In this document: piece by piece, positions 32,410 through 63,610 of the stretch
Layout of the letters: the number at the start of each line of letters is the position of its first letter
How positions within the stretch are numbered: position 1 is the first letter of the stretch
DNA from: Branchiostoma floridae
Lineage: Eukaryota > Chordata > Leptocardii > Amphioxiformes > Branchiostomatidae
DNA length: 64,000 bases
Reading direction: 5' to 3'
NCBI RefSeq assembly: GCF_000003815.2
Contig: NW_023365730.1
Location: 223,147-287,146 of the forward strand
Notes under the pieces: model-generated
Database searches by the model: none
What the model saw: the letters and a program-made list of their open reading frames with translations, nothing else
What the model was told of the DNA's origin: nothing
Program-made: the position numbers and the translations under genes

Positions 32410-32765
32410 CTAACAGGCTACGGCCAGCTGCCGCGGGGTGCAACCCTTTCTGCAGCAATAGTCGGCGATCCCTTTGTAAGCGTACCGCCCTCTTCCCCGC
32501 GGCCTGCCCCTGCCTTTCCCCCTCCCCCTGCCCTTCCCCCTCCCCCTTCCTCTTCTCTTCTCCTCTTCTCTCGTCTCGTCTGCACTCATTCTCGCGAGAT
32601 CTATGACGGAAGCGACGTTCCAGAAGTCGAATGGCGCGAGAGTCGGGAACGTGGTTGTGTACGAGGGCAGGCTGGACAGGGTAGAGTGGAGCGGGCCCTC
32701 GTCACGGAGTAACGCTGACCTGGGTGTCCTGATGGAAGGAGGCTTCAAACCGGGAGGTCTGGGCT
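32410..32765 (-). CDS. Relaxin/insulin-like peptide, exon 2 (C peptide and A chain)
   Basis: This exon encodes the C-terminal half of an insulin-superfamily hormone precursor. An acceptor with a strong pyrimidine tract (CCTGTCTTTTTTTCCAG) precedes it and it enters in phase 1. It gives a Pro/Ser-rich C peptide, then a polybasic Arg-Gly stretch (EEEKRRGRGRGKG...), then YAYKGIADY and CCRKGCTPRQLAVAC, and it stops at once. The CC-x3-C-x8-C spacing is the diagnostic A-chain pattern, and ending on the last Cys is usual in the superfamily. With exon 1 (63610-63433) it forms a 177-residue precursor: signal peptide, B chain, C peptide, A chain, with six Cys expected to form the three canonical disulfides. 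Processing is expected at KR after the B chain and at the RGRGR-type sites before the A chain. A MITE begins ~20 bp past the stop. The product should be a secreted hormone acting on an RTK or relaxin-type GPCR; which one is inference. Confidence 0.85.
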
Positions 32766-33036
32766 CTGGAAAAAAAGACAGGAAAATTTCATTATTTGTT
32801 GCACACACCCTCGACATAAGCGACCATAAGCAGAAGGTCTCATTCCTACATTTGAAAGTCCCATTGGAATCAGTGTTAAGATACGAACCCGTAAAAGATA
32901 AACTGTATCTGAAGATGTTTTGGTTTCTAACGTAAGCAAACTTGTTCGTTAAATGACTTTGTTAAATGCTTAAAAATGGGAGGTCTGGCTCTGGAAAAAC
33001 AACCATAAAGAAAAAAAATGCATTATTTGTTGCACA
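32752..33036 (-). repeat. Duplicated intron/exon boundary of the insulin-like exon 2
   Basis: The plus-strand text GGGAGGTCTGGGCTCTGG, an A-rich run, then CATTATTTGTTGCACA at 32752-32805 recurs at 32978-33036. In minus sense both copies offer a pyrimidine tract plus CCAG/AGCC acceptor. The upstream copy leads only to a short frame with an early stop. Confidence 0.8.
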
Positions 33037-33039
33037 TAT

Positions 33040-34185
33040 AACCAGGTAATCAGGCAGAGGTCAGGGAGGTCATGAGGTCAGGAGAGACCCGGATGTTCAG
33101 TTCAGTTTGAGTTCTAGTTGAGTTCAGACAAGTTTTATGCATGTATAGTTTCAGAGTGTGTGTGTTTATAACGCTAGTTAGTTTAGTTTACGAGTAGTTA
33201 AGTTACACGGTGGGTTGCCAACTGTCCGGAGAATCACTGAGGCCATAAAAGAACCTACACTGACAAGGTAGGAGTCTTCCCCTTGTACACACAATTATAA
33301 TACCTCGTATATAGGAAGTTAATTCTGTAGGATACAGGACTTCAGGTCAACGAGCTTCACTCTATCCTGCTGGACAGAAACTCGTGGCAATCTTGGTGTC
33401 ACTTCTCTGGGGATGAACTGAACTAAACTGTTGCACACACCCTCGACATTTGCATAGGTTGTGAAAAGGCATGCATATGAATGTATGATTGTGGCCACCA
33501 CCAGGCCTTTAAGTTACTATGGGGTATACGAAGACCGTAGAAGTCGGGAAAAAATTTGAAAATTGACAAGCTATGGGAGTCAATCCACCCTAAGTTTAAT
33601 GTTTTGCCTGCGCGGCCGGCCAACTCCTCTGGTAGCAAAACTACCCTGGCAAATTATTCTCCCAATGATTGCGTAGACTAGTCAGTCTGGTAGAGACTTG
33701 CGTGCTTGCAATGTTGCGGATAATTGGTAGATGTCGCTGTTGCATGGCGACCCAAGCGATTTTCCTTGCATGCAATTCCATTGTAAATCGCCTGGTGGCA
33801 TCTTTGAGAATGCCATACCAGCTGCTGCATCTGAAACTATGTTGATGAGTATTTCTCTTTTGCAGCTCAAGCGTACTTGAAAGTCAAAGCAAAACCATTA
33901 CGGCGGATCCTATTTTGAGAGCTGTTTAAACATCTGACACAAGGGGTATTGACAACATATTTTTGCCTAATCCTTGGCTAAAGCTGTTAACTACACGTGG
34001 AGACCCTGACCTATTCAGTGTTTTTTCAACTCTATTTTCGGCCACGTCAAGTCATTGTACCCAAACACCTTATGCTTATTGATTTTAGCTACGAAAAGCT
34101 TGGCAAAGCGCGCGGAGATTCCATTTCCTTGAGCCTAGTTAAGCAGGGTAAGATCAGCAGGGCGCTCTTCACACACCCTGGGGAG
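33040..34185. other. Intron sequence, nothing recognised
   Basis: Inside the inferred 30.7-kb intron of the insulin-like gene. Short frames only. A phrase GTTGCACACACCCTCGACAT recurs near 33432 and 32800. Confidence 0.35.
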
Positions 34186-34189
34186 CCGA

Positions 34190-34960
34190 GGCGGGGCGTG
34201 AGGGCGGACGGCCATCAGAGCGTTGTACCGTCAGAAAATCATGACATTTGGGGAGCCAAGGTTTGGTTTGGTTTGGTTATACAGATCTCCATTAGTGACT
34301 GATATGTCACTATTTTTCCTGGGAGTCTGGGTGATTTGTAGAGAATCACCAATTCTAGACGGAAGGACCATCGCGCGTGTGTGCATTCTTTAACTTTCTT
34401 GGGTTTCTTTCGAAACACGAGACCTCCATTTAAAGTCCTATCCGAGGGACGGCCCTAGCCGAAGTTAGCTACTAATATTCACCTGAGTAAAGTGAGGAAA
34501 GCCGTGTAAAGTGCCTTTCCCAAGGGCACAAGATCGGTGACATGGCAAGACTCGAACTCCCGAGCCTAACACGCTGCCGCTGCACCGCACGATCCCACAA
34601 GGGCGCAAGGGCGGTCGATCGTCGGAGCGTTCTACCGTCAGAAACTTATGACATTTGTGTGTCCGACAGCGCACGAAGAGCGCTGTTACTATTTAGCGTC
34701 AAACTCGGGGATGCATCAGAATTGCTAGGTCGAAAGACACAAACCTGCTTTCCAAGAGTACGAAAGAGGAGGCTTCTTCTTTAAAGCACGAAGGAGAAAT
34801 CCGCCTCGGAAAACCTAAGGTGGCTCTCCATGCCTGTCTGACGGGGCACGATCATCAGAGCGTTGTACCGTCAGGACCTTATGATATTTGTGTGTCTGAC
34901 AGGCCGTAAAGAGCGCTGACTACTTTTCAGCACCAAACTCAGGAGTATTTCTTCAAAATA
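34190..34960. repeat. Three copies of a dispersed unit, split by a SINE
   Basis: AGAGCGTTGTACCGTCAG and similar, followed by AACTTATGACATTTGTGTGT-like text, occurs at about 34195-34250, 34610-34690 and 34850-34925. The first copy is interrupted by the SINE at 34258. Confidence 0.7.
34258..34596 (-). mobile_element. tRNA-derived SINE, copy B (near complete)
   Basis: In reverse complement: a tRNA-like head (GGATCGTGCGGTGCAGCGG, B-box GAGTTCGAGTCTTGCC), then TCACCGATCTTGTGCCCTTG and GGGAAAGGCACTTTACACG, a ~200-bp body, and an AACCAAACCAAACC tail. The CCTTGGGAAAGGCACTT core resembles the central domain of V-SINEs. This copy is longer than the one at 32085-32330. Confidence 0.7.
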
Positions 34961-35439
34961 TGTTTCGTTCGTGGGAAAATCTGCGTCTGTGGTAGGGTAC
35001 CTGGCTACTTTAGAAACGCAAGACACAAAAGGGAAATAGTTTTCTCTTTGAATACCCATTAAGGTATATAGTAAGTCTGACAAATCCTATCGGCTCAACG
35101 CCAGACGTTTATTGTTTAATACTTATTTAGACATACAGCACTTCCTACAGCGAACTTACATTAAATGCTCGATATACAGGACGGAACTAACATGCCTTGT
35201 AGAACATGAGATCAATTTAAGCGCAGGTATTCCGGACATACCTAACGATGCACATTTATCAAAGAAATTCGTTACGTAAAAGTTGTTATAGTTTAATCAT
35301 TGTACAACATTCTGTAAGGTAACAAAAATAAACTAGCTTCATTCTTTATACCTGCATACCATCTTCAGTCGAGGGAGGAGTGGACTCCTGTAGTGGACTG
35401 ATCTTGTCACTTCAGGTCATCGGCTAGGCATGCTCATAC
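34961..35439. other. Intron sequence, nothing recognised
   Basis: I saw no gene or matched repeat. Confidence 0.35.
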
Positions 35440-35805
35440 ATAAGATGGCTCCAATGTTTGTCTAGTTGGTTTTTGAATTGGTTCACTGTCTTACTGCTCA
35501 CCAATTTTTCTCTGGCAGGAAGTTCCAGTTATTTACTACTCTTGTGCTAAAAACCTGGGCTCTAAACCTCGACTTAGCGAGGGGAATCTTCGATTTTAGA
35601 CTGTGTCCTCTTGTTGTTATGTTTTCCGCCCGTTTTATAAGATTTCACTACCAAGAGAGTGTCATAAAGCAATCGTCTTTGATTTATAACCCGGTGGATA
35701 AGACTCCCTGGATATACAGTATTGCCTCCCGGAGCTTCTGCAAGTTAGTGATGTCTGATCGTTTAAACCCTGAGGAGAAGGGCTGCAGAGATGAATGGAA
35801 ATGAA
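35440..35805 (-). pseudogene. CR1/Jockey-type RT C-terminal fragment
   Basis: The minus-strand reading, with stops and shifts, gives FKRSDITNLQKLREA near its start and FSTRVVNNWNFLPE then VNQFKNQLDKHW near its end. That is the FFSxRVVNxWNxLPE...FKNxLDxHW signature that closes many CR1-like ORF2 proteins. It directly abuts the 3' tail of the full LINE at 35829, so the LINE inserted next to an older, decayed one. Confidence 0.75.
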
Positions 35806-35883
35806 AACTCTTTTCTGAAGATTTATAGTTTTTATTTATTTATTTGAACTTCACCATATTGTGTTTACAAAATGGTAGGGAGG

Positions 35884-35924
35884 CAAAAACAGGTTGTAAC
35901 CTTTACTAGTTGCCTCCCGTGCAA
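35884..35924 (-). other. 3' UTR stem-loop of the LINE
   Basis: In minus sense GGGAGGCAA ... TTGCCTCCC forms a 9-bp stem around a ~23-base loop, about 55 bases before the AAAT tail. Stem-loops at this position are recognised by the RT in L2/CR1-type elements (family knowledge). Function here is inferred. Confidence 0.65.
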
Positions 35925-36089
35925 CTAAATTATACAATAATAGAAAAATAATCATAATGATAACAAATAATAACAATTGTACAATCAAATAATAATGATT
36001 TTGTCAACGACAATAAAAGCAAATATACAATAATAACAAATATAAAGAAATAAATCATAGAAATAATGGTAAGATGAAATATGAAATAT

Positions 36090-39000
36090 CTAGAAAGGTG
36101 TACAACTGGGACACTGACAGTGGGTGACCCAAGTACATACGTCGTTGGAGTTAAATCTGTCGTTGGTAAGAGAGAGATAGTGAACTAGGATTGCTTTCTT
36201 AAAGGTATTAATTGTAACAACTGGGGAAAGTTTTAGAGTTCTAATGTTGAGGGGTAAAGCGTTCCAGATGTGAACGATTCTTTGGAAGAAATAGTTTTTA
36301 AACGTAGTGGTGAGACATTTTTGGGGCTGGAGCTTGGCTTGTGAGTTGGATCTTAGGGATGTGAGTGGAAAACTTATATATTGATGAATGTCAATACCGT
36401 ATTGTCCCAAGAAACATTTAAATAGGAAGGATAAGTCTAATAATTCTCTGCGGTAAGATAGAGGTAAGAGTTGGCAGTAGATCAATCTATCCCTGTAATC
36501 AGTTGTATGGTTGTTGAGAATGTATTTTGTAGCACGTCTTTGGACTTTTTCAAGGGAAGTAATTAAGTTATGAGTGTGGGGGGACCAGATTAACGAGCAA
36601 TATTCGAGTTTGGGCCTAACTAGTGTAATATATAGGATTTTCTTAACATTTGCAGGGGCATGGTAACCAACAGATCTCTTAATAAAGCCGAGGGTCGAGT
36701 TGGCACTAGCTGTGATGTTTTTTATATGACTCTTAAAAGATAGGCAGTTGGACATAGTAACACCTAGGTCATTAAATTCCGTAACTGATGAGAGCACTTG
36801 TCCCTCAATTTCGTAGTCATAGAGCACTGGTGTTTTAGACCTACAGATAGTGAGCACGTTACATTTAGAGGTATTAAATTTCATCATCCATGTGACACTC
36901 CATTCGACCATGTTGTCAATATCATGCTGAAGGGAAATACAATCAGCTGGTGATGAAATTTGCTTGTAACATTTTGAGTCATCAGCATAAAGGGCCATGG
37001 GACATTCTATAGTAGAGGGCAGGTCATTAATATAAAGTAAAAAAAGTAGAGGTCCCAAAATGGAACCTTGTGGGACTCCGGATATTACAGGAAGCCAGTC
37101 TGAAGAAACTCCTTCAATGACTACTCGTTGTCTTCTATTAGACAGATAATCAGAGAACCAATTTAGGAGATTCGAGTGGAATCCAAATGTCTTAAGTTTG
37201 TGTACAAGAAGGTGATGTGGAATGCTGTCAAAAGCTTTGGAAAAGTCGAGGTAAATTATATCTATCTGGCCACTGTGATCCAAAGTTGTCCCGACGGTTT
37301 GAAAGGTTTCCAATAGTTGGGTAGTAGTAGATTTTCCTTTAATAAAGCCATGTTGTAGTGGGTGAATTTGGTCTTGAAGGTGAGGGAAAATACGGTTAAA
37401 AATGCAACGTTCCATAACCTTACTTACTACACTGAGTAAGGAAATGGGTCGATAGTTTTCAACAGAGTCTTTACTGCCTTTCTTAAAGACGGGACAGACG
37501 TTGGCTTCTTTCCATTTAGCTGGAACTATGCCCGATTGAATACTTTTGTTGAAGATGGCAGTAAGTTGAGGAGCTAATACGTGTGCACCCTCGCGTAGGA
37601 TCACTGGGGATATAGAGTCAGGGCCAATAGCTTTTGTACAATCTAAGGTAAGCAAGACATCTAGAACTTCCTTGATTGTAAAGTCAATGTTGCCGAGGAA
37701 GGGATGTCTCCAAGCACTGATCTCAGGGAGAGGCTGATTTACTACAGGGGTAGTAAAAACAGAGAAGAAGAACTTGTTAAACAGATTTGCTTTATCAGTA
37801 GGTGTCGTTCCTTGATAATGTTTGTATTTCAGAATTTGTGGCAAGCAATGTGATTTTGTTTTATTTTTAAAGAAAGTCCAAAATTTCTTAGGATTATTAT
37901 TGACCAAGGATCCCAAGTTCTCAAGAAACAGTTTGTACTTGTAATGAATAAGTTTTTGTAGACCATTTCTAAGTTTCCGGAACTTATGCCAGTGGGCTGG
38001 GCGATTAGTTTTCTTTGCCCTTCGCCATGCAGTCAACTTCTTATTTCTAAGATGGTAGACATCACCATCACACCATGGCATGGAATAAGAATTTTTTATT
38101 TTAGCTTTTGGTACATGGTTTTCAACCAAGCCACACAAACATTGTAACCACGTATCCCAACAGTCATCAATGCTATCAGATTCTACAAAGCCTTGAGAAC
38201 CGAGAGTGTCTCTGAGACTTTGTCGTAGGTTATCAAAGTTGCATTTTTTATACTGGTAGGCATGTCTTTTCATGTTTGATTGACGGAATACCGTACGAAA
38301 ATTCAGGTCAAACTGTAGAATAGTGTGATCAGTAGGAAAATCAGATGATACTTTTTCAACTTTGGAACATTTTTCAGGAACGTTAGTCAGAATCACATCC
38401 AAAAGATGGTTATGACTGTTAGAAGTAACATTATTAACCTGTGTTAGTGAGAAATCATTCAAAACATCACAAAACTGGTTTTCTGTAGTAGAATTGCCTA
38501 TCAAACTACACCAATCGATATTAGGGAGATTCAAATCACCTAATAAGACCACCTTGTTGTATTCTTGGTCGGCCAAACGCAATGTATATTGGAGGTTATT
38601 AGTAAATGCCAGTAAGTCCCCATTAGGGGGTCTATAAAACAAGATGATACCGATTTTCCCCTGTTTTTCTGTCAGCATTTCGCAGACCAAGATTTCGTCA
38701 ACAGGTTCAATATCAGACCTCCTTCTTGACAGAATATTGCCATTGACAGCTAAGAGAATGCCCCCGCCGATTTTGCCGGGAATGACAGTACAACGATCTT
38801 TGCGATAAAGCAAGTAGCGCTTGGGAAGCAATTCGTCGTCTTTGATACTTGGGGTTAGCCAAGTTTCAGTTACTGCCACTAAAGAAGGCTGATTTGATTC
38901 AACAAGGTTTTGGAACAGCACTAATTTATTTCGCCGACTGTTAACAGATTTGATACTACGACCATTCATGTATAAAACTTTGATTTGGCTTGCGCTATCT

Positions 39001-39221
39001 ACTTTATGCAATTCCTTACGATCTTTGCTATTGTCATCCCTATGTAGCGGGGGCGCTGCAGAAGAGCTAACCGATCTCAGAGTTCTACTACTAAGAGAAA
39101 TGTTCCCAATTGACAGTCTTTCATCGTTATTATTATCGTTTAGGCAGGAGTCTGTGTCTGTCTGCTGAGTCAGTAACTCTTCCGGCTGAGTTGCACTAGT
39201 CTCCTTTGGACTTCGCTCCAT
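36090..39221 (-). CDS. LINE ORF2: APE endonuclease and reverse transcriptase
   Basis: A 1043-residue uninterrupted frame, about the full length for CR1/L2-clade ORF2. Residues ~80-305 form an AP-endonuclease-like domain with VLYMNGRS (Asn86), VTETWL (Glu119), LLGDLNLPNIDW (Asp229, Asn231) and PTDHTIL (Asp298, His299). Residues ~510-770 are the reverse transcriptase with VENYRPISLLS, HGFIKGKST, YLDFSKAFD, GVPQGSILGPLLF and catalytic ALYADDSK (745-748). The C-terminus has IVHIWNALPLNIRT. The protein nicks target DNA and primes reverse transcription from the cut. ORF2 is in a different frame from ORF1 and its open frame overlaps the end of ORF1 by 50-100 bases, so translation by reinitiation or frameshifting is likely. 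All visible catalytic residues are intact. Confidence 0.93.
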   Translation of the reverse strand: MERSPKETSATQPEELLTQQTDTDSCLNDNNNDERLSIGNISLSSRTLRSVSSSAAPPLHRDDNSKDRKELHKVDSASQIKVLYMNGRSIKSVNSRRNKLVLFQNLVESNQPSLVAVTETWLTPSIKDDELLPKRYLLYRKDRCTVIPGKIGGGILLAVNGNILSRRRSDIEPVDEILVCEMLTEKQGKIGIILFYRPPNGDLLAFTNNLQYTLRLADQEYNKVVLLGDLNLPNIDWCSLIGNSTTENQFCDVLNDFSLTQVNNVTSNSHNHLLDVILTNVPEKCSKVEKVSSDFPTDHTILQFDLNFRTVFRQSNMKRHAYQYKKCNFDNLRQSLRDTLGSQGFVESDSIDDCWDTWLQCLCGLVENHVPKAKIKNSYSMPWCDGDVYHLRNKKLTAWRRAKKTNRPAHWHKFRKLRNGLQKLIHYKYKLFLENLGSLVNNNPKKFWTFFKNKTKSHCLPQILKYKHYQGTTPTDKANLFNKFFFSVFTTPVVNQPLPEISAWRHPFLGNIDFTIKEVLDVLLTLDCTKAIGPDSISPVILREGAHVLAPQLTAIFNKSIQSGIVPAKWKEANVCPVFKKGSKDSVENYRPISLLSVVSKVMERCIFNRIFPHLQDQIHPLQHGFIKGKSTTTQLLETFQTVGTTLDHSGQIDIIYLDFSKAFDSIPHHLLVHKLKTFGFHSNLLNWFSDYLSNRRQRVVIEGVSSDWLPVISGVPQGSILGPLLFLLYINDLPSTIECPMALYADDSKCYKQISSPADCISLQHDIDNMVEWSVTWMMKFNTSKCNVLTICRSKTPVLYDYEIEGQVLSSVTEFNDLGVTMSNCLSFKSHIKNITASANSTLGFIKRSVGYHAPANVKKILYITLVRPKLEYCSLIWSPHTHNLITSLEKVQRRATKYILNNHTTDYRDRLIYCQLLPLSYRRELLDLSFLFKCFLGQYGIDIHQYISFPLTSLRSNSQAKLQPQKCLTTTFKNYFFQRIVHIWNALPLNIRTLKLSPVVTINTFKKAILVHYLSLTNDRFNSNDVCTWVTHCQCPSCTPF

Positions 39222-40684
39222 CGGCCTCTCCTGTTGAATACATCCTCCTGAAAACCCTGCCGGATGTAGTCGTTAAGATGGGTGGCTAGAAGAGCTGTTC
39301 CTTTCGCGGTGAGATGGACTCCATCGTACAAGTGATGCAGCTCAATGTCTTTGTTGTCCAAAAACCCCCACCCTTTCCTAGCACACAAGGATGCTAGATG
39401 CTGGTTAACTTTGCTCACTTTCACAGTAGACCCGTCTCTGACTGCCAAACTGGAGAAGCAGAGTTGAGTCGAGTTTCCGGACATACTGTTGCCCAGGGTC
39501 TCGAATTTTCTCGTTATGGAAGAAATGTCTTCATGAAGGTTGTTCGTCCCAACGTGAAGAATGAGCAACTGAGGTTGGATGTCAGATAGATCATTCTCTG
39601 CCAATCTTTCAACCTGCTCTAAACGAGCTCCTCTGTGTGTCCTACATATGACTACTTTCCCAGTGCTTCGGGACATACGCCTTGGATTCAAGTCTTTCGT
39701 CATGGAGTCTGCCAAAATCACAACATCCGGGCTTTTCCAGGGCTGACTTTTGTGTTGGGGCATCTGTGGACGGGTAGCTTGACTGAAACCTGATCTTCTG
39801 GGAGACTGTGGGCCACGGGTAGCTTGACTGAAACCTGATCTTCTGGGAGACTGTGGACCACGGGTACCTTGACTGGAACCTGATCTTCTGAGAGACTGTG
39901 GACCATGGGTGCCTTGACTGAAACCTGATCTTCTGGGAGACTGTGGACCACGGGTACCTTGACTGAAACCTGATCTTCTGGGAAACAGCCTAGAGTTCTT
40001 TACTTGTGGCGTGGGACTACGTTGGTACTCATCATCACTGCGCTCCTCCTCTATATCCAGAAGTGACTGATATCTGTTTGACAGGGGAACACTAGTACTA
40101 CTCGAAGGGAAAAGATTACTAGTTGCAGGGGGGCCTTTAGACACGTGATTCCATGTGTCCTCCGTGTCCTCCCTGACTGTACTGGACGAGTGTTTTCCAT
40201 CGGTCATAAGAATACGAATCACTTCTTTTAGGGACGCATTTTCATCCCGTAGTCCTTGTGATAACATGTACACATTTTCTTGAACTGAGGCCAATGTGTT
40301 TGCTACATTCCGAAGTTCCAGTGTGATGGATTCAAGACTAGGTTTCGGGACTTCTGGGACTGGTGAGGAGGGAGGTAGGCTGATCTTCACTGGCTCACCA
40401 GCCACGCGCTTTGGTGACGTTTCAGCCTCCAACGTATCAATGTCTGAAGGGGAAGGAGGTAGGTTGATCTTCACTGGCTCACCAGCCACGCGCTTTGGTG
40501 ACGTTTCAGCCTCCAACATATCAATGTCTGAAGGGGAAGGAGGTAGGCTGATCTTCACTGGCTCACCAGCCACGCGCTTTGGTGACGTTTCAGCCTCCAA
40601 CGTTTCAATGTCTGATGGGGAAGGAGGTAGGCTGTTCTTCACTGGCTCACCAGCCACGCGTTTAGGTGACGTTTCAGCTGCCAA
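39170..40684 (-). CDS. LINE ORF1: repeat-rich protein with SGNH/GDSL-type esterase domain
   Basis: In order: four 28-residue repeats (unit ETSPKRVAGEPVKISLPPSP) at residues ~3-114; a predicted coiled coil (LESITLELRNVANTLASVQE and onward, ~115-165); five 15-residue repeats (RRSGFSQGTRGPQSP) at ~236-306; and an esterase-like domain at ~319-475. The esterase has VVILADSMTKDL (Ser327), LILHVGTNN (Gly378, Asn380) and YDGVHLTAKG (Asp454, His457), matching the Ser/Gly/Asn/His blocks of SGNH hydrolases. Such domains are known in ORF1 of CR1-like LINEs. The frame opens to 40753 but begins here at TTG. The first in-frame ATG is at 40519 within repeat 2, so the true start is lost, non-ATG, or further upstream. 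Role: ORF1 proteins bind LINE RNA; the esterase substrate is unknown. Confidence 0.88.
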   Translation of the reverse strand: MAAETSPKRVAGEPVKNSLPPSPSDIETLEAETSPKRVAGEPVKISLPPSPSDIDMLEAETSPKRVAGEPVKINLPPSPSDIDTLEAETSPKRVAGEPVKISLPPSSPVPEVPKPSLESITLELRNVANTLASVQENVYMLSQGLRDENASLKEVIRILMTDGKHSSSTVREDTEDTWNHVSKGPPATSNLFPSSSTSVPLSNRYQSLLDIEEERSDDEYQRSPTPQVKNSRLFPRRSGFSQGTRGPQSPRRSGFSQGTHGPQSLRRSGSSQGTRGPQSPRRSGFSQATRGPQSPRRSGFSQATRPQMPQHKSQPWKSPDVVILADSMTKDLNPRRMSRSTGKVVICRTHRGARLEQVERLAENDLSDIQPQLLILHVGTNNLHEDISSITRKFETLGNSMSGNSTQLCFSSLAVRDGSTVKVSKVNQHLASLCARKGWGFLDNKDIELHHLYDGVHLTAKGTALLATHLNDYIRQGFQEDVFNRRGRWSEVQRRLVQLSRKSY

Positions 40685-40788
40685 AGTTTTAGACTTTGGT
40701 AATGTCTCAGCACTAACAGACTCATTGGTGACCTGTTTTATGGCTTTCGTGATTCAGTAATAATTCTACAAACGTCCCTGCGGATGCA

Positions 40789-40989
40789 TTACTTTAAGTC
40801 ACAAGAGCAGCACATCCATAGCGGCTTGCAAGAGAAAAATGAGCACGTTCTCACTGCTTCCACCGGGATATCTATAGAAATTTTTTGTCCTTTGAAGGGC
40901 GACACTTTCGTAGGTATCCTGAGAATACCTTGTCGCTTACAAATGTCACATACTCTACAATGTGAATATATATCATTTATATCCTGCAT
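40789..40989 (-). CDS. Cys-rich 66-codon frame upstream of LINE ORF1
   Basis: A true ATG opens a frame with YSHCRVCDICKRQG (C-x2-C-x2-C) and, 30 residues later, VRTCSFFSCKPLWMCCSC. It ends at a stop 36 bases before the ORF1 open frame, in another frame. The WMCCSC ending recalls zinc-binding fingers, and PHD-type fingers are known in ORF1 of some CR1-like LINEs. It could be the separated N-terminus of ORF1. Assignment is tentative. Confidence 0.3.
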   Translation of the reverse strand: MQDINDIYSHCRVCDICKRQGILRIPTKVSPFKGQKISIDIPVEAVRTCSFFSCKPLWMCCSCDLK

Positions 40990-40999
40990 TGTTAAAACT

Positions 41000-42329
41000 G
41001 TACTGATCTAGTGCCTGATGACACCGTCTTAAGAAAAGTCAGATACGGGAAAGCGCTGCTTATATCCAACTACCGTGAATCATGTATACATCTTGACAAT
41101 TCGCATCTGTAGAACGAACCAGTAAAATTCATCATCCGAATCCAAGTCTCAAAACTACATTTCCGATAGAAACGCGTATTTATGGTAGTATTCTCGATTC
41201 CAGCAGATTAGTTTTTGATACTTGATCCCACTTGATAGATGTGCTTGCTGGCTAAGGAACCGCCTCAGCACGACGCGCTGGATCCTCTTTGTACTTGAAC
41301 TTGAACTTCATCTGAACCCAAGCTTCAGACATTTGAGATACCCTTAGATATATAAGATATATCCTAAGATATATGCTAAGATATATCTCTAGATCTTTCG
41401 GTACTATGTAACAGATCGAAGTAAGCTGATAGTTGCTTATCATATAGACATTTTTGGTCTAGTATTTCACTGACGCTGTCTGTTGCAATTGTGATGAAAC
41501 AATAGAGACGTGCACAAGTCTCAGAGATACTCAGATATAAGAACTCACTGTAGAATATTCCACTGATTTTTTTTAGCCCGAAAAATGTTATCAAACTTTT
41601 CTTTGGTAGAGATTGATACTTAGGATTGTACCTTGCTTTTGAAAATGCAGTGGTGCTCATGGGCACTACAAATCATACTAAACTGCATTGAGCTGTAAGA
41701 TGGAGGAAGCATCGCAGATTTCCTTCGGCTTTTCTTTGCTCACATTTACGGCGTGATACTGGCCATTCGTCACGGACATTGCATCGGATCACCAACTTCC
41801 GGTACTCCTGAGGAATGACATTCGTCTTCCCCGCTCTTTACTACCGTACCTCCCGCTCGTTATAGTAGTACATAAGGCCACAGCAAGTACATTTTATGGA
41901 TGCCATCAGCGCGCTCATTGTCTTTCGCCTGATTTCAGAAAAAAAGGAATATTTTTTTCCTATTCGTGAATGGTCAGATAGACCAAAATATGCAAACATG
42001 TTGTGCTGTAGCCTAATACTAGAAATCATACTTGTAAAAGTGACACTAGGGAGGACGCCATGACTATAGCCGTTGAAGTGAAAATTGTTGGATAGTTGTA
42101 AAAGTGCCACCAATATGGAAGCCATGACTGTAGTTGACAGCTTGGCAAGTGATACCAGTGTACCGCGCATTAGTATCACTTTTACTACACTAGTCCACTT
42201 TTTTAATACAGGAATGAATGCTTTGTTAGTTGAGATGCCACTGATGCCACATTTTGTCACTTCAAATCTTGTTACGACGTTTATGGTGTTTATTTTGAAA
42301 ATTTAGCCGTCTTTTTTTACCTATCTTGT
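41000..42329. other. Intron sequence, no supported gene
   Basis: Short frames on both strands only. Small AGATATAT clusters occur near 41345-41390. Nothing was recognised. Confidence 0.3.
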
Positions 42330-42530: not shown

Positions 42531-42540
42531 AGTATTTCTT

Positions 42541-47185: not shown

Positions 47186-47189
47186 AATG

Positions 47190-52254: not shown

Positions 52255-52358
52255 GAGAAATGTACTCTTTCAGTTCTGTCAGAAGTCCAACCATATGTAA
52301 TGGTACAAATGCTTTTTCTCTCTCTCTTTCTCTCTCTCTCTTTCACTCTCTGTCTCTC

Positions 52359-52389
<31 letters not shown>

Positions 52390-54440: not shown

Positions 54441-54920
54441 GGACGGAGCACGACCAATTAAAGATTGTAGAAGGAGTCCGATTGTAATGTATAGATGATG
54501 TACAATACGTATGACATATGTCAGACTTCATCTACAATAGCACGGCCAATTAAAGTTTGTAGTAGGGGTTGTAGTAGCCCTATTAAAATGAAAATATTGT
54601 ATACGTGTACTCGTAAGCCATGTCAGCCTGACATCTACAAATCTACAAGGAATATATTATCTTTCCATTGCTTATGCAACATTAAAGGTAAATTTTCTAT
54701 GATATACACGGACTGAAGTAAAGTGTTGATAAGCTTTCCCAACTCTTCGTTTGTGCGAACATTACCCGGAGTGTCACTGTATCATAAGTACATCTGATTC
54801 AGTATATTTCTGTCACCACATCTACTTCACACCTTCATCCTCTCCACCATTAGACAAGTCACCGAAAATTCCCACACAAATCTTTAGAAAGGACATAAAG
54901 TGTTGGTAGAAACCTTCCCT

Positions 54921-55425
54921 ACAGCCACACTCGACTGTCGGTGTGATAGCATCTTCACTAAGAGACAGGTTCCAAATACTAGTACCAGTAGACAACCTCA
55001 GGGCAGATATTGGCATGATTCCACTTAAAACATTTCCTCAAAAAGGTTACGTGAGATTGTTGTCCCCTACATTACTTACAAAACTCTAAACTACAGCCCC
55101 ACTCGGTTGTCGATGTGATACCATCTTCACTGAGAGACGGATTCCAAATACTAGTACCAGAAGACAACCTCAGGCCAAATATTTCCACGATTCCACTTCA
55201 GACCTATCCACAGAAGGTTACGTGAGATTATTGTCCCTTCACATTACTTATAAAACTCTAAACTACACTCGGTTGTCGGTGTGATACTATCTTCACTAAG
55301 AGAGATATTCCAAATACTAGTACCAGAAGACAACCTTAGGCAGATATTTCCACGATTCCACTTCAGACCCCTCTGCAGAAGGTTACCTTAGATTATTGTC
55401 CCCTACATAACTTATAAAACTCTTT
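54921..55425. repeat. Tandem repeat, ~172-bp period, three units
   Basis: Units share CACTCGNNTGTCGGTGTGAT, CCAAATACTAGTACCAG and CACGATTCCACTTCAGACC, starting near 54921, 55094 and 55262. It is unrelated to the neighbouring arrays. Confidence 0.92.
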
Positions 55426-55545
55426 GGATGTTGAATTTGGTTGACAGCAAGATGAGATCCATATCTGAGCCACGCCGAAGTCGCCGTAGATGTTAAAGTA
55501 CTTCGTGTAAAGTACGCAGAACAAGCAAGGATTTAATGACTAAAG

Positions 55546-55777
55546 GTGGTATCTCACTGCACTTCGGGCACCGGTGCGGCACTGCGGGGTTCGTTTGCTG
55601 TTTTATTTGTCATTTTCACCAATGTTTTATAATGCTTAATACGTAAAAGTATGACTTACAAGACAACAAAATACACAAAACATGAGAAAATTCGTTCTTC
55701 ATCTCTAAAATTCGTTGATTCATCTACAAACCCCGTAGTGCCGCACCGGTGCCCCAACTGCAGTGAGATACCGCCTT
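55546..55777. mobile_element. MITE with GGTATCTCACTGC..GCACCGGTGCGGCACT termini
   Basis: The left end (AAGGTGGTATCTCACTGC, then GCACCGGTGCGGCACT) is the reverse complement of the right end over ~50 bp. The interior ACGTAAAAGTATGACTTACA and GACAACAAAATACACAAAA is shared with the MITEs at 58026 and (inverted) 58480. Confidence 0.88.
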
Positions 55778-56035
55778 AAGATGCGCTTGTAGATAGACAC
55801 ATCTTTTACGATTTACGTTGTGAAGCAAAAGTGCCTGAAAGGTAGTTAAATGCACTTTACAAACCGGGCCCTGTGGAGTATGACGTAGAAAGAAAGCTAT
55901 TTACAACCTTTACAACGCGAGCTACAAATTAGACTCACTCTTTAAGTACGTTGCTCCGAAACTATTGGAATGGGCTACATGGAGATTTTGGCTTGTGATT
56001 TCAAACGGAACCAAACGTTTGGCACTAGGGGTGGG

Positions 56036-56464
56036 TACCGGAACACAAAATTCAGGTCCAATTCCGGCTGAGGTTCAGATGATCATGTCCAGGTCCGGAC
56101 ATGAACCTGGACCTGACTCAGTATTTGAAAACTTGTGAATGGCCATATAGACGATACTCAAAAAATGGTCCATTTCACTACAAAGAAATCTGTTTGGTGG
56201 AGTATTTTACTCACACGGGCATGCTAAATTCCTACAATGCTAACTGCCCTTGTTCGATTGACGGTAAAACTTGGTAGAAATGACAACAGACTCTACTTCG
56301 CTCTTGTTGTTTTCCTCGATCGTTAATCCCCAAAACTTGTGAATGCATGATCACATAATCTGGTCATTTTCCAATAGGTCAAAAATTCGGTCCACCGATT
56401 TTTTTTCAGGTCCGTTTTCTTCTGGACCGGGCCAATAAGAAAAAAACGGTTTTACCCACCCCTA
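56036..56464. mobile_element. hAT-like MITE (TAGGGGTGGGTACCGG family), copy 2
   Basis: Inverted ends TAGGGGTGGGTACCGG / ...ACCCACCCCTA are flanked by an 8-bp direct repeat, TTTGGCAC (56028-56035) and TTTTGCAC (56465-56472), 7 of 8 identical. An 8-bp duplication fits the hAT superfamily. A related single end lies at 56754-56829. Confidence 0.85.
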
Positions 56465-56753
56465 TTTTGCACCATTCTTTAATGTGAAATGAATCTTCAT
56501 TCTCAGGGTTTGGGAGTTTGAAATGAATGCAAGAAGTCAGTTTTTGGACGTGGCCCAAGGTTTATGCGGCTCTTTGCGTCAGTGTTGATGGGAGTGTCAT
56601 TAGGCTATGTTCCTACTACCTTCTATTATTGCCCCTCCCATGCTAAAAGTAATTGTGCTATTCCCCAGGCCCCTACTGCTATCGCCATGAGCATCAGTTT
56701 GTCTTGAGGCTCAATTACCACTTTTTTTCTCGCTCATATCGCGTGTCCGCTAC

Positions 56754-56829
56754 TAGGGGTAGGTACCGGTACAGAAAATTCAGCTAAATGTCAGGTTCGG
56801 ACCTGAACCTGGACATAATTGTTTGTGAA
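56754..56829 (+). mobile_element. One-ended fragment of the TAGGGGTGGGTACCGG MITE
   Basis: TAGGGGTAGGTACCGGTACA followed by GTTCGGACCTGAACCTGGAC. It ends where the next tandem array starts. Confidence 0.75.
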
Positions 56830-56836
56830 TGGGCAC

Positions 56837-58356
56837 CATTTCAAGTAAACTAAGCTTGTCTAGTGTTAAGTCAAAATTTGCGCCAAATAGAAGCCATTCA
56901 AACAGTAACGTTACATCCCGTTTCAAAATTACATGCAACAGTCTAAAACTTTCAACCATGCATAAAAATCATACAATGCTGAATAAAACACCTCAAAATC
57001 TATGCGTATTGATGTATGACTCTATGTACTTATGAAGCCATTCCGTTCTCTTGGAATGTCAAGTTCAACCTGTGGCATTCCACTCTTCCATCTCCAGCAG
57101 ATGGGTGTAGCTGGTCGGTGAGTAAGGTTAGAACATTAAGGTATAACCTGAGTGGCACATACCCATTCTTCACAGAAATACTGCACCTGTGAGATACGGT
57201 GACATTAGCTTGATAACACGGTAAAAACGTTTCAAGTAAACTAAGCTTGTCTAGTGTTAAGATGAAATTTGGGCCAAATAGAAGTCATTCAGGCAGTATG
57301 AAATCTTTGTTCTAACTGTAGGTATGCGTTAACTGACATAGTGAATCTCGTCTCTATGTTAAATGCGGCAATCTTAGACTTTCAACCATGCAAAACAGAC
57401 GTACCGTGACTGAAAATTTGTGTGTATTAATGTGTGACTCTATGTACTTATGAAGTCATTCCGTTCTCGTAGAATGTCAAGTTCAACGAGTCACATTCCC
57501 CTCTTCCATCTCCACCACATGGGTGTGCCAGGTCGGTGAGTAAGGTTAGAACATTACGGTATGACCTGAGAGCTTCACACCCATTCTTCACTCAGTAATA
57601 CTGCACCTGAGATATACCATGACATTAGCTTAATAACACGGTACTAAAACCATTTCAAGTAAACGAAGCTTGTCTAGTGATAAGATGAAATTTTGGCTAA
57701 ATAGAAGTCATTCAAGCAGTATGAAAAACTTGTTCTATCTGTAGGTTTGCGTTGACATAGTGAAACTCACTGTTTCATGTAATATTAAGATATTATATGA
57801 AACAGTCTAAGATGTTCAACCGTAAATAACAACCATACAACGCCTTAAAATCTATGTATATTAATATATGGCTCTGTACACTTATGAAGCCATTCCATTC
57901 TTATGAAATGTCAAGTTCAACTCGTGGCATTCCCCTCTTCCATCCCCAGCAGATGGGTGTACTTGGTCCGTGAGTAGGGTTAGAACATTAAGGTATGACC
58001 TGAGTACCACACAGCCATCCTTCACTACTCCTTTCCACCAGACGGCGATCGCGCTGCGCTCTCACTGCGACCAAGAAAGAATATGTGTAACTTTTGATTT
58101 CATACTGGGTACATCATACAAATCGTAAAAGTGTGACTGAGCAGACAACAAAAAAACACACAAGTGTAAAACTATTCGTTTCTTTTCTATACAATTCGTT
58201 GAGCGATGTGTCATATTTTATGTCGCAGAGAGAGCGTGGCGAGAGCGCCGTCCTAGTGGCAATGGAGTATAAGGTATGACCTGAGTGGCTCACATCCATC
58301 CTTCACTCAGTAATACTGCACCTCAGAGATACCGTGACATTAGCTTAATAACACGT
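56837..58356. repeat. Tandem array, ~395-420-bp monomer, three units, third one interrupted by a MITE
   Basis: Units start TTTCAAGTAAACTAAGCTTG at about 56839, 57230 and 57653. They share TTCTCGTAGAATGTCAAGTT-like text, GGTCGGTGAGTAAGGTTAGA and CATTAGCTTAATAACACG. The third unit is split by the MITE at 58026-58269. Confidence 0.92.
58026..58269. mobile_element. MITE (GACGGCGCTCTCGC family) with long flanking direct repeat
   Basis: Termini TACTCCTTTCCACCAGACGG and the reverse complement of CCGTCCTAGTGGCAATGGAGTA agree over ~45 bp, including GC-rich CGCTGCGCTCTC motifs. It sits in a satellite monomer and is flanked by a 36-bp direct repeat (57990-58025 and 58271-58306, 4 mismatches). Confidence 0.85.
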
Positions 58357-58479
58357 AACGCTCAACAGCATGCGTTTTACTGCCGGGGTGATACCGCCAG
58401 ATCAAAGGACGATACATCACCACGGCAGCAAACCCGGGAAACTTTTACAGCTTTCTTCCGTGGTTTACGATCGCTATTA

Positions 58480-58808
58480 AAGGTGGAGTCTCACTGTACT
58501 TGGGGCACCGGTGCGGCACTGCGGGGTTCGTAGATGAAGAACGAATTTTCTTCCGTTTTGTATATTTTGCTATCTTTTAAGTCATACTTTTACGTATCAC
58601 TCACTCACTCACTCACTCACTCACTCACTCACTCACTCACTCACTCACTCACTCACTCACTCACTCACTCACTCACTCACTCACTCACACGTATTACGCA
58701 ATATCTAAATCATCCCAAATCGCGAAAATACCAGTACAGCGCCGCAGTGAATGAACCCTGCAGTGCCGCACCGGTACCCCAACCGCAGCGAGATCTAGAG
58801 TCCACCTT
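58480..58808. mobile_element. MITE (GCACCGGTGCGGCACT family) expanded by a TCAC microsatellite
   Basis: Inverted ends AAGGTGGAGTCTCACTG and (reverse complement) AAGGTGGACTCTAGATCTCG, with GCACCGGTGCGGCACTGCGG inside the left arm. The interior matches the 55546 element in reverse orientation. It is flanked by an ~83-bp direct repeat (58397-58479 and 58818-58900). Confidence 0.88.
58597..58688. repeat. (TCAC)n microsatellite
   Basis: About 92 bp of pure TCAC units inside the MITE. It produces a poly Leu-Thr-His-Ser frame. Confidence 0.98.
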
Positions 58809-58959
58809 CAATCTGTGCCAGATCAAAGGACCATACATCAACCTCGTCCGTGGCGCGAAACTTTTACAGCTTTCTTCTGTGTTTTACGATCGCTATTAAA
58901 TCTGTGCAGAGCTATTTTTCGGCTGACGTTTTTTATGGGACCCTCTGGCATCGACAGCA

Positions 58960-59450
58960 AATTGAGTGGTAAAACGCCCTTACATATTTAATGGCTGACG
59001 CTATTAGCTTCATCGAAAGACTTCATCATTTGCGTATGTCGTGTACGGAAAGGATGGTCTCTTTAGACAAATGACCAAAATGAACAGACACGGACCCTAA
59101 GATACGATAATATAAGAGAGCATCTGTATCACTACATTGGTAGCATATTGAGTGAGTGGAAAAACGTGCTTACATATCTAATGGCTGTCGCTATTAGCTT
59201 TATTGCATTATTTGCGTATGTTGTGTAGGGAAAGGATGGTCCTTTCAGACAAATGACAAAATGAACAGACACGGACTATGAACCCTAAGATAGGATAATA
59301 TCAGGGAGCATTTGTATCACTACATTGGCAGATAATTGTGTGAGTGGTAAAACATGATTACATTTCTAATGGCTGTAGCTATTAGCTTCATCTAAAAGGC
59401 TTCATTTTACTATGTCGTACGAAAGGGACGGTCTCTTTAGACGCTTTAGG
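58960..59450. repeat. Tandem repeat, ~188-bp period, three units
   Basis: AATGGCTGTCGCTATTAGCT (variants) at about 58991, 59180 and 59368, with GAAAGGATGGTCTCTTTAGA and ATGAACAGACACGGAC in each or most units. Confidence 0.9.
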
Positions 59451-59804
59451 TCGCATCAGGGAGACTTTCAGAGACATTGAGACTGAATGAGCCGCACAGA
59501 ATAGTCAGGAAATTGTTGGATAGACAAAGGGAAATGTTGCTCAAAAACGCACATTCAAATCTACAGAGATAAACCGTAGACTCTATCGTCACTACATGTG
59601 CTTTTATGGCATAAGGAAAGAATTATGGCCTTGATTTACAAGTTCATCACTCCTCACGTCAAAACGCTTCGCATGGCACTGTTTTCACGTAGTGTTAACT
59701 TGTCCTACCTTTGCATTCAAAATTTGTCTTCCTCCGTTTTTTGCATATCAATTAATAGTTAAGATATCTGTTCTTCACCTAGATCACTTTCACATATAGA
59801 TTCA

Positions 59805-59975
59805 CAGCTAGGATATAAAAACCCTCTCCAAGAAGATCTCTTCAGTGTCACTGACGAAAACTTGCGGGTGCTAGTTGAAACGTCTGACCGTTTCCAAAAT
59901 CAAATCCAGTTGCTTGAGTAACTGCTTTTTTGACGTATATTATTACTTGGATGTCTAACCTTCATTGACACGTCG
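59805..59975 (+). repeat. Dispersed repeat (GTTGCTTGAGTAACTGC family)
   Basis: GTGTCACTGACGAAAACTTG, GAAACGTCTGACCGTTTCC and AGTTGCTTGAGTAACTGCTT in the order seen in the 24.3-26.1 kb cluster. Confidence 0.75.
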
Positions 59976-61079
59976 TAGTGATATTCCAGTGTAACATCAA
60001 GCTGCAAAGCCGAAGGATGAATTTACGTACAGACATTGCGTATGGGAAGATGAATATCGTAGATTACATACGTCTCTATCATATGATAGGAAAATATCAC
60101 AAAGAAAATATCAAACGTCAACTTAGGCTTTGATCTGAAGAGAAACCTTTCAACCATTCTAATCAATCGATGGGCTCCTATAGAGTGACAAACAGTAAGC
60201 CGTTGTATGAGCGATAGTGTAATTAAATTACATGAGGATGTAGTACCTGGGAGAATACCTCATACTCGTATAGAATGTAGCACGGCGTATTCCGTATTGT
60301 CGAGGTACGGCCCGGCCGCGGGTAGGATCGCATGAAGGCCGGAGGACGATCCGACCTGCGGGAGGGCTGGGTGCGAGGGGGATGCGGAATACCTCGTGTT
60401 GTATTTTATTTATTATATCATACAAACCCGAAAAAATCGTGTTTATCGCAAAACAAAAGGCAAAAGACGTGACAGCGAGTACAAATCGCGTCAAAAACGT
60501 TGCCAATTCCAACAACAACAAAAAACGGCGAAGTATTCAAACAGTTTTCGACAGCGGCACTCTCAAGCGGGTTCGAATATTGATCGAACTATGGAGCCCC
60601 GGGCCGTACCTTAACATAAGGACGTCCGGTAATAACACCGATATCAAGCGTAAACACGGACCGGGTATGATATAACGACTCATATCCTGCCTTAGCCTTT
60701 TATGCTGTAGAAACTTAAGTCTAAAAACGTCCATAAACAGGACGGACAGCATCATAGAACACGTACATAAGGCAATACACGTCCAGTGAATGAAAGGAAG
60801 TCAATTCGTGGCAATGATTTAATGGCTTTGGAAGTTATTCACCCTCAGGTATGTACTTTTCGTAAATGATCAAATGGTAAACCGAACCCAACGGATAACA
60901 GGGTGGATAGAAAGGAGGTTTTGATTTTAAAAGAACTGGAAATGTTGTCTTGGGATACGAAGGCGTAAATATGTTGCCTTTATCTCCACTTTAAGGAATG
61001 ATTTAAAGTGTGGATTAAAGTATTCTCTAAGGTTTTGTCGGCGAAATGTCGTCGTGACATTCTGTAGCTTTATATTTCC
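59976..61079. other. Intron sequence; a GC-rich patch with a 13-bp inverted pair
   Basis: AGGTACGGCCCGG near 60304 and CCGGGCCGTACCT near 60600 are inverted and could be the ends of a ~310-bp element, but the alignment stops quickly. No gene was recognised. Confidence 0.35.
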
Positions 61080-61900
61080 AATTTTTTCTGAAGGAAGCAA
61101 CAAAGTCACAACCTTAATGCAAACGCCAAACATAGCTTTGTATTGTATCATAAACTAACAACAATATCTTCAGCATCAACTTCATCATCGTCGTCCCATA
61201 GCTTTTTTAATCACCCGTAGGGGCAGCACAACTTGCTGCGCTGTATCAATAGGATTTTAGTCCCCTGGTGGTGCCTATCTCCTCTCCTCATCAACTTAAG
61301 ACAGCTACATGCATATATGCTCTCCAAGAACACGCTTTTTTTTTTGGCGGAAATAATATAGACAGAACCTTATTCCAGACGTCAATGATAACTTTGAACT
61401 GCATCATAAAGGGCTACAAATTGACAACAATCAACTACAGCAACAGGAACACACGTCACATCTAAATTTGTACTCTCTTTTAACATACATTTTTTATCTC
61501 TGACGGAAATTATATATTAAGACAGAACTTTATTGCAGACGTCAATGATAACTTTGTACAGCATCATAAAGGGCTAGGAACTGACAACAGTCAGCTACAT
61601 CATCAGCTACAAACAGCTACATTTTTACTCTTGGAGAACATGCATGTTTTTGTTTTTTTTTCCGACGGAAATAGTATAGACGGAACCTTATTGCAGACGT
61701 CAATGATAACATCATAAAGGGCTAGGAACTGACAACAGTCAGCTACAACATCAGCTACAGAGACAGCTACATTGATACTCTCCAAGAACATACTTTTTTC
61801 TGACGGAATCAATAAAGACACAGCATTAGTGCAGACGTCAAGTAAAACTTTGCCCTACGCTACAAAAGGTTACCCACGGGCAACAACCAACGCACAGCGT
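61080..61900. repeat. Tandem repeat, ~150-170-bp period, four to five units
   Basis: Units share GACGGAAATAGTATAGACGG, GCAGACGTCAATGATAAC, GCATCATAAAGGGCTA and ACTGACAACAGTCAGCTAC. The first unit near 61090 is the most diverged. Confidence 0.9.
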
Positions 61901-62466
61901 GCCACTCTCCACAAACATATATGCTGGATGATCAAAAGTTAGCTGCGATGTCAGTTATCTGCAGACTTACTGGAGACATAGGTATGTCTGGTGCCTATAT
62001 GTCCGGCTTTTACTTTACTTGAAATCCCCTCAGAGATCCTGACATTCAGTTTTGGACTCTTCCCCGTTTGATTTTCTATCTCTGTGACAGAAAGTAGCGC
62101 TTACGGGAAGCTTTTAAACATACCGGACGTCTGTCTTCTTTTATTGCAGTAACATTGAATGATGTTTCAGGAACGTTCTTATCCAGTAACTCGTATCTGG
62201 TTTGGCTGTGTCATCAAGTAAACCGGGCTGCCTAACAGTGTCAAGGTGAAACTCTCTTAGCATCCCAAAGAGAGTCTCAAAGTTATAAAATATCAACTCA
62301 GAGTACACGGATAAATGTGTTTGATTCCCATTTCTACATGTATAATCCTACCGAATATAACAAGAAAATGACTAAAGATTATGCAAACATCAACTTGCTT
62401 GCAATTCGGCTCAGCAGAATTTAAAGTCTTGAAATCCATTGTGATTGTTGAAAAGAGCTAGGAATA
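61901..62466. other. Intron sequence, nothing recognised
   Basis: I saw no gene or matched repeat. Confidence 0.35.
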
Positions 62467-62645
62467 CTGTAAATGCAGAAATGTTCGCGGTGGATTAATA
62501 TTCACGGTTTTCGCGGCGGCCACTTCACCGCGAATTTAAATCCGCCGCGAACATTTTTCCATAACAGTAAGAGACTACAGTGCATGGTGCTACCGCGAAA
62601 TTAAAACCACCGCGAGAAGTCCCGCGAACTTAAATGCATTTACAG
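62467..62645. mobile_element. TA-flanked MITE (CTGTAAATGC family), copy 3
   Basis: Perfect termini CTGTAAATGCA / TGCATTTACAG with TA on both sides and GTTCGCGG/CCGCGAA motifs inside. It is the shortest of the three copies. Confidence 0.88.
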
Positions 62646-63432
62646 TATGTCCCCGATACAACGAACAATATAAATTTATTTGTTTATTCATCTATGCATC
62701 TAGGGCAGTCCAATCAGTTAGTTTTAACTGATATATAGCGTAATTACTGTAAGTAGCGCCTGTCTTCCCTGTCAAGACCAGTGGAGGAGTGGGTCTTCAG
62801 TGAGCTAAATTATATCGATATCAGTTTCACTTTGAATAAACAGCTGAACCGCCTAGCCATTTCTGGTCGGGTAAAACAAAGATAACGCAAGATAGATACA
62901 ACCAAAATATACTATTCACAAGAAAAAATATTTAAGAACGTACAAAAAAGAATCAAGAACGTTAAGAACCAGAAGCGGCATCACGGTCTACATCTTCACC
63001 ATGTTTTAAGCAACTACAACAAATTGATTTCCACCACTTTCAATTTCGGGAAGACAACTTGTAGAGGTGACCCGACACCTGTTTTGTCTCACCTTCCATT
63101 TTTGTAATGGAAAATTAAACAAACAAATTGCTATTGCTCCAATGACCTCATACTACTTGTCCCTCCGGTGAGAGCCTTTCAGCGTAACACTAGGTTCTCT
63201 ACATGTCCTTCTATAGAAACAGTTTATTTCCACGGACAGCTAAATTATAGAACTCTCTCAACACCTGCTTTCCCCTCCTGTCTATTACTCCTCAGCCTTC
63301 AAAACAAATGCCCACCGCTATCTCCGTGCTCAGTTATTTCCAACTCCTTAGTTCATTGCCCAGAAGTGGTCTCGTGACATTGCTTTGAACAATCTCGTTA
63401 AAACAATTTTAAAAAAACTTTCCGTCCCTTAC
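62646..63432. other. Proximal intron of the insulin-like gene, nothing recognised
   Basis: Begins at the exon 1 donor on the minus strand. I saw no other exon or repeat match. Confidence 0.35.
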
Positions 63433-63610
63433 CTGAGAAGTCGGCTTGTCTGCTCGCGTCGTGGCCGGACCGTTTGTGCATGCCGCAGACCAGGAAGGTC
63501 GCCCGCAGGAAGGACCTTCCGCAGAGCTTCACTCCGAACACCGGGCGGGTCGGGGACAGCACCGACAACAGAAGCACCGTCACAACAACGGTTCTGTATA
63601 GCCGACCCAT
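63433..63610 (-). CDS. Relaxin/insulin-like peptide, exon 1 (signal peptide and B chain)
   Basis: The minus-strand frame starts at ATG 63610: MGRLYRTVVVTVLLLSVL is a signal peptide with likely cleavage around PVFG, then VKLCGRSFLRATFLVCGMHKR. LCG-x9-LVCG with C-x11-C is the insulin-superfamily B-chain signature. VKLCGR and R-x3-R-x2-F are closest to relaxins, whose receptor-contact motif is R-x3-R-x2-I/V. KR then gives a convertase site, and the C peptide begins SGHDASRQADFS. The exon ends at a consensus donor TCAG/GTAAGG in phase 1, the conserved intron phase of this superfamily and complementary to exon 2 at 32765. The joined codon is GAG. The start codon lies within the first unit of a minisatellite that continues upstream. 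The hormone is secreted. Relaxin versus insulin/IGF-type receptor use is not decided by sequence. Confidence 0.87.

Follow-up and report, generated by a model that had tools for sequence, protein, structure and literature searches.

The stretch of Branchiostoma floridae DNA analysed here (the window; 64,000 nucleotides, positions 223147-287146 of contig NW_023365730.1, below called C172, in a genome of 513.4 Mb) carries on its minus strand two coding exons separated by a very long intron. We read them, with a probability of about 0.96, as one protein-coding gene predicted to specify a secreted peptide hormone of the relaxin type. The same contig holds a second relaxin-like gene, an insulin-like gene (ILP) and the exons of an aromatic amino acid hydroxylase, and the edges of the hormone exons are accompanied by repeats which copy their splice sites.

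Gene structure and precursor

The features of the locus are collected in Table 1. The upstream coding exon (B exon) ends in ...CTTCTCAG/GTAAG, its final base being 63433, and the downstream exon (A exon) begins at 32765 after the acceptor ...TTTTTTTCCAG; read directly from the sequence, both edges are in phase 1. When joined, the 178 and 356 coding bases give 177 residues and a stop codon. Seven acceptor cuts were tried at the A exon, of which five hit a stop codon and two read through; only 32765 of these two is preceded by AG. The exon contents and phases are thus as an earlier model-made reading of the letters alone (the sequence-only reading) had described them.

The precursor shows the exact cysteine spacing of the insulin superfamily in both the B chain (C-x11-C) and the A chain (CC-x3-C-x8-C), so that the six family cysteines are present, and its phase-1 intron lies in the C peptide, as is characteristic of the superfamily; the same residues adjoin in the orthologous proteins. 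By inspection, the signs of processing are a hydrophobic N terminus, KR after the B chain, and an Arg-rich stretch, not a standard dibasic site, before the A chain. The signal peptide would be removed, the C peptide would be excised at KR and at the basic Arg-rich site, and the two chains would be joined by the usual three disulfides into a hormone of about 43 residues. In a structure search the Arg/Gly-rich stretch (32485-32556, minus strand) resembles Sm D1 tails, and it makes the A-chain cleavage site ambiguous.

Table 1. Features of the relaxin-type locus and its contig (window coordinates unless marked C172)
Feature	Position	Strand	Remarks
B exon	63433..63628	-	putative 5' untranslated region of 18 nt, signal peptide, B chain, start of C peptide; coding 63433-63610
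B-exon edges		-	acceptor CTCCAG/GAACC, donor CAG/GTAAG, phase 1; read from sequence
Signal peptide MGRLYRTVVVTVLLLSVLSPTRPVFG	63533..63610	-	cleavage site by eye
B chain VKLCGRSFLRATFLVCGMH	63476..63532	-	KR site 63470-63475 directly after
Intron	32766..63432	-	30,667 bases, phase 1, C-peptide region; contains long interspersed nuclear element (LINE) and 100-N gap
A exon	32410..32765	-	bulk of C peptide, A chain, stop codon at 32410
Arg/Gly-rich C-peptide end (RRGRGRGKGRGRGKGRGRPRGRGR)	32485..32556	-	retained in two other species, lengths vary
A chain YAYKGIADYCCRKGCTPRQLAVAC	32413..32484	-	terminal Cys
Acceptor-type array, part in window	63654..63974	-	five decoys of the B-exon 5' edge, with one more lying across the end of the window
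Donor-type repeat fragment	62971..63036 (C172:286117-286182)	-	in intron, just 3' of B exon
A-exon decoy acceptor	32967..33036	-	decoy exon start 32990, 225 bases upstream; in frame, reads EPDLPFLSI then stop
LINE in intron	36090..40753	-	endonuclease/reverse transcriptase open reading frame (ORF) 36090-39272 (1060 codons open); upstream ORF 39170-40753
Assembly gap, 100 N	48528..48627	.	in intron; second gap at 8714-8813
Aromatic amino acid hydroxylase exons	C172:198562-204052	-	left of gene
Relaxin-type gene of the window	C172:255556-286774	-	
Second relaxin-like gene, LOC118407870	C172:372650-373680	-	100% match; annotated as uncharacterized
ILP gene	C172: B match from 417186, A match 422609-422728	+	genome profile search

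Orthologues and the joining of the two exons

The strongest evidence that the two exons form one gene, despite the intron and the gap in it, is that two further Branchiostoma species carry the whole joined protein. These orthologues are the B. lanceolatum "prorelaxin H2-like isoform X3" (173 aa) and B. belcheri LOC109477363 (174 aa), with BLASTP identities of 85% [7.5e-94] and 81% [8.9e-90], respectively; aligned from first to last residue, the junction included, they are 88% and 86% identical to the B. floridae product. They were found among 5.8 billion proteins, the candidates considered being those of 0.55-1.75 times the length of the query. The unmasked search returned 81 rows, in which the two orthologues are relatives and a row from Patiria (P0070) shares, by eye, the basic repeat only; the remaining 78 rows were dropped unopened, the insulin Pfam domain being listed for none of them. 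With the Arg/Gly-rich stretch masked, the 7997 candidates scored (those with most shared words) yielded the two orthologues only.

The Pfam Insulin profile (PF00049) matches residues 28-177 of the joined product [2.6e-6; 28.8 bits, cut-off 23]. Taken alone in a six-frame search of the genome, the A exon reaches 17 bits [E 5.08], below the cut-off for this profile, and the B exon is unlisted. The profile match and the full-length lancelet proteins are the outcomes that the sequence-only reading, which took the exons for the halves of one 177-residue precursor, had led one to expect. A genome search with this product gave ten rows, strong at these two exons only, the next best [E 0.234] lying in the Arg/Gly-rich stretch.

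Patterns were scanned over 264 kb of the contig (C172:223147-487146, which includes several runs of N, the longest of 12.9 kb); to the left of the window the stretch covered was C172:196600-206500. The 264 kb contain three CC-x3-C-x8-C motifs, all of them insulin-family A chains, and no second A-chain motif was found between the two exons. Four intronic matches to one B-like pattern all lie near stop codons and have no signal peptide by eye; the sequence-only reading, too, had seen no other A- or B-chain-like exon between the two. The motif scan of the 264 kb gave no credible partner exon elsewhere.

Class of the hormone

The A chain ends in ...LAVAC-stop, and a Cys in this terminal position is reported to characterize the relaxin/INSL sub-class (PMC4772807). 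Against solved structures the B chain scores highest with human relaxin-3 (22.9 bits), ahead of relaxin-2 (18.7), INSL3 (16.5) and insulin (13.6), while the best match of the A chain is relaxin-2 (20.4 bits). When the whole precursor was compared, rows 1-5 matched the basic Arg/Gly-rich part and relaxin-3 came sixth. The ILP of the same contig, used as a control, scores 49 bits against IGF-II and insulin. Over 40 columns of A+B core, with six Cys in each case, the peptide is identical to relaxin-2 at 21 positions, to INSL3 at 19, to relaxin-3 and insulin at 16 each and to IGF-II at 13. A tree of these 40 columns, built from 11 rows of our own choosing (P0083 and P0085 were left out), places the gene, its two orthologues, LOC118407870 with its B. 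lanceolatum orthologue, RLN2, RLN3 and INSL3 on one side, and INS, IGF2 and ILP on the other (97/92).

The vertebrate motif RxxxRxxI/V is incomplete: R-x3-R is present, with Phe at the third position in the three lancelets aligned, just as the sequence-only reading had remarked in calling the B chain relaxin-like. Because Phe stands in place of Ile/Val, the gene is filed as relaxin-type and not as a vertebrate relaxin. By the tree and the B-chain matches the peptide groups with the relaxins rather than with insulin/IGF; the A-chain matches are less clear. The hormone is predicted to act on an RXFP1/2-type leucine-rich-repeat G protein-coupled receptor, the relaxin-receptor class of which five rxfp1/2-type genes are reported in amphioxus (PMC3310001).

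Repeats at the splice sites

Minisatellites at amphioxus exon edges have been described as "mirages", with regular splicing undisturbed in Adh3 and globin genes (PMC3087553). At the present locus the acceptor-type units continue past the window to C172:287621, and are scattered as far as C172:288057. A profile search of C172:286500-290000 detected 14 units at E < 1e-5, the authentic exon among them, which are tandem and degenerate; by a loose pattern, 12 of these units, the authentic exon being one, keep an AG. Two of the acceptor-type decoys read MGRLYRTVV followed by a stop. A donor-like edge (GGATAAG/GTACGG and near forms) is present in six copies at C172 288.55-289.55 kb. Genome searches with one acceptor unit and one donor unit gave at least 11 matches (one of them the exon itself) and at least 10, respectively, all on C172 within 286117-289597. 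We are therefore dealing with a locus-specific tandem repeat across an exon-intron boundary, as in a mirage. The decoy upstream of the A exon has a local score of 35.9, a value reached by none of 349 control segments (maximum 17.5).

The acceptor at which the B exon begins lies 18 bases ahead of the ATG, which makes it likely that one or more non-coding exons are located further upstream, beyond the window. The gene is thus two-exon, as had been claimed, in its coding part, and likely not as a whole. The donor units presumably adjoin a real exon, and a non-coding first exon probably ends near C172:289548, 2.8 kb upstream of the B exon. The edges copied mirage-fashion would then be the donor of this supposed first exon and the acceptors of both coding exons, and splicing would have to choose the authentic sites among the decoys. 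Sites resembling the cAMP response element near the supposed promoter were given no weight, TGACGTCA occurring 35 times in the 264 kb.

Content of the intron and of the window

The long intron, to which the sequence-only reading had drawn attention, is not special in itself, and contains a LINE. The upstream ORF of this element has a weak match to GDSL hydrolases, below its cut-off. Pfam, run on eight of the 70 ORFs listed for the window, recognized the LINE and a transposase domain, the latter being the HTH_48 domain of Mos1-type (mariner) transposases in an ORF at 8-322 (plus strand). Among ten ORFs picked by eye to the right of the window none matched Pfam above the cut-off, DUF6172 falling below it.

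Alternative explanations

Several observations weigh against our interpretation. The cleavage site on the A-chain side is not cleanly dibasic (RPRGRGR/Y). The orthologues are database proteins; LOC109477363 is marked PREDICTED and the B. lanceolatum record is an "isoform X3", for which the predicted structure is poor (mean pLDDT 41.4). Neither the masked nor the unmasked search of the 5.8 billion proteins returned a relaxin outside the lancelets at E 10. The other A-chain scores are bunched, with INSL3 at 16.5, fly DILP5 at 16.4 and IGF-I at 15.8 bits, and the A chain matches relaxin-3 (14.1 bits) no better than insulin (14.0); raw A+B identity to these two is likewise equal. The tree has only 40 columns, six of its eight inner branches are open and its relaxin rows are long. 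This failure of the A-chain scores to separate the sub-classes cleanly is one ground for thinking of an insulin/IGF-type peptide which acts on a receptor tyrosine kinase. The two classes belong to the same superfamily, receptor choice is not provable from sequence alone, and the receptor of starfish RGP/GSS is itself contested, an RXFP1/2-like GPCR being reported in one paper (PMC7682835) and the tyrosine kinase argued for in another (PMC8286064). With the terminal Cys of the A chain (PMC4772807), R-x3-R in the B chain, and both the B-chain matches and the tree siding with the relaxins, we consider this improbable.

Nor do we give much credence to the view of the locus as a copy in decay, or one with poor expression, in which minisatellites have disturbed the exon edges and transposons have swollen the intron. 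Decoy acceptors do stand at both coding exons, the intron is long and harbours a LINE, and the length-limited protein search gave no B. floridae entry for the gene; against this, the 177 codons are open, the splice sites intact, all cysteines kept and full-length identity to two species is 86-88%, and regular splicing is reported to continue in Adh3 and the globin genes despite their mirages (PMC3087553), so that decay appears very unlikely. The least credible proposal of all is that the exons derive from separate genes within a cluster of the relaxin/insulin kind, each with an unseen partner exon, or were brought together by a misassembly at the gap. The gap does lie inside the intron, two more insulin-superfamily genes are found on the same contig, and introns in the neighbouring genes are far shorter (the second relaxin-like gene has one of about 0.5 kb, and the two ILP matches are about 5.3 kb apart). 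The proposal is nearly refuted by the orthologues, in which exactly these two halves are joined; as the whole product, junction included, is one protein in both species, the worry about a misjoin, voiced in the sequence-only reading, is answered better by them than by the window itself. The exons, moreover, share strand and phase, they are the only two places genome-wide to match the product strongly, and with the patterns used there is no other A motif between them and no credible other B exon. A single relaxin-type gene remains the reading which we prefer.

Gene neighbourhood

The hydroxylase of the contig is assigned to the TH/PAH/TPH family level, TH identity not being implied. One of its exons (minus strand) enters a tandem repeat at C172:200807-201494 (9.1 copies of 76 bases, 96% matches), and this repeat copies the 3' edge of the exon with its GTAAGT donor, a donor-type mirage. 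Contig C19 has two further hydroxylase genes, oppositely oriented and separated by about 180 kb (4670449-4677626, minus strand; 4858337-4868418, plus strand); they are near-equal in score, and one may be an inverted duplicate of the other unless the pair is an artefact of assembly. Close relatives of LOC118407870 occur in B. lanceolatum, B. belcheri and a floridae x japonicum hybrid. Elsewhere in the genome we noted an insulin-like, A-chain-like exon (DDCCFNVCTFDTLESYC) at C135:60187-60285 (minus strand), and an insulin-family A-chain-like exon below the Pfam cut-off (DVCCERGCSTEELVIYC) at C12:6366080-6366184 (minus strand).

TH and INS are reported to be close neighbours in most vertebrates (PMC11222543), and triplets of insulin-related genes in arthropods and ambulacrarians (PMC7357564, PMC8286064); by word count, Branchiostoma and amphioxus are absent from the main texts of the latter two papers. 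Two amphioxus INS/IGF genes in tandem are mentioned in PMC8805411, and the 2008 amphioxus genome paper is credited with six insulin-relaxin genes and synteny to vertebrate loci (via PMC4361685 and PMC3310001). In the titles and abstract openings of the literature searched, the four-gene linkage is not described; some of it may have been published. One could go further and suppose that the contig retains an ancestral chordate set of hydroxylase, relaxin, relaxin-like and insulin/IGF-like genes, a counterpart of the arthropod and ambulacrarian triplets and the source of the vertebrate INS/IGF and relaxin loci, and that in addition the mirage arrays serve as a switch which varies with their length, decoy splicing adding short upstream reading frames (the two MGRLYRTVV-stop units) before the hormone start and so lowering output. 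This combined proposal is speculative and, on balance, unlikely to be correct. The gene is an ordinary member of a known family in an interesting neighbourhood, and its very long intron alone is of little surprise.

Comparison with known systems and annotation

The B-chain core of 18 residues is identical in B. lanceolatum and differs at one position (17/18) in B. belcheri; the lancelets, which were compared as proteins only, differ in the length of the Arg/Gly-rich stretch. With human relaxin-2 and relaxin-3 the gene has in common the chain layout, the six cysteines, the terminal Cys and the CGR-x3-R of the B chain, and it departs from them in Phe for Ile/Val and in the Arg/Gly-rich end of the C peptide, which relaxins are not known to have. 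LOC118407870 resembles it in having two coding exons, a phase-1 intron, a terminal Cys and the same strand; in contrast, only 16 of 40 core positions are identical, it is without R-x3-R and its intron is of about 0.5 kb. RGP, likened here by description, belongs to the relaxin sub-class and has the terminal Cys, but is described as being without the RxxxRxxI/V motif (PMC4772807). The repeats agree with the amphioxus mirages of Adh3, BflGb6 and BflGb9 in being tandem copies across an exon-intron boundary (PMC3087553); they differ in that one gene here has arrays at two of its exon edges and a single decoy at a third, and in that two acceptor-type decoys contain the start codon with an identical opening of nine residues.

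In 2015 four B. floridae models of the relaxin-like kind were described, reportedly the earliest for amphioxus (PMC4361685). The window gene may correspond to one of the older models 72897, 74371, 97394 and 100967 or to EEA41967.1. While LOC118407870 was found at 100%, the length-limited search returned no B. floridae protein for the window gene, which may be missing or wrongly modelled in the annotation of this species; since such a search would overlook a wrong model of very different length, "unannotated in B. floridae" is only likely. The decoy acceptors and the long intron could explain why automatic annotation possibly missed or misbuilt it. In B. lanceolatum the gene is already named (prorelaxin H2-like).

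What is offered here is a complete and testable model of a B. floridae relaxin-type gene. Its product shows the greater part of the B-chain motif used for receptor binding in vertebrates, and it comes from a lineage that figures in discussions of how relaxin signalling arose. The points of specialist interest are the gene cluster and the arrays of decoy acceptors. By physically tying relaxin-like, insulin-like and TH/PAH/TPH-family hydroxylase genes together, the contig bears on the split of the hormone branches.

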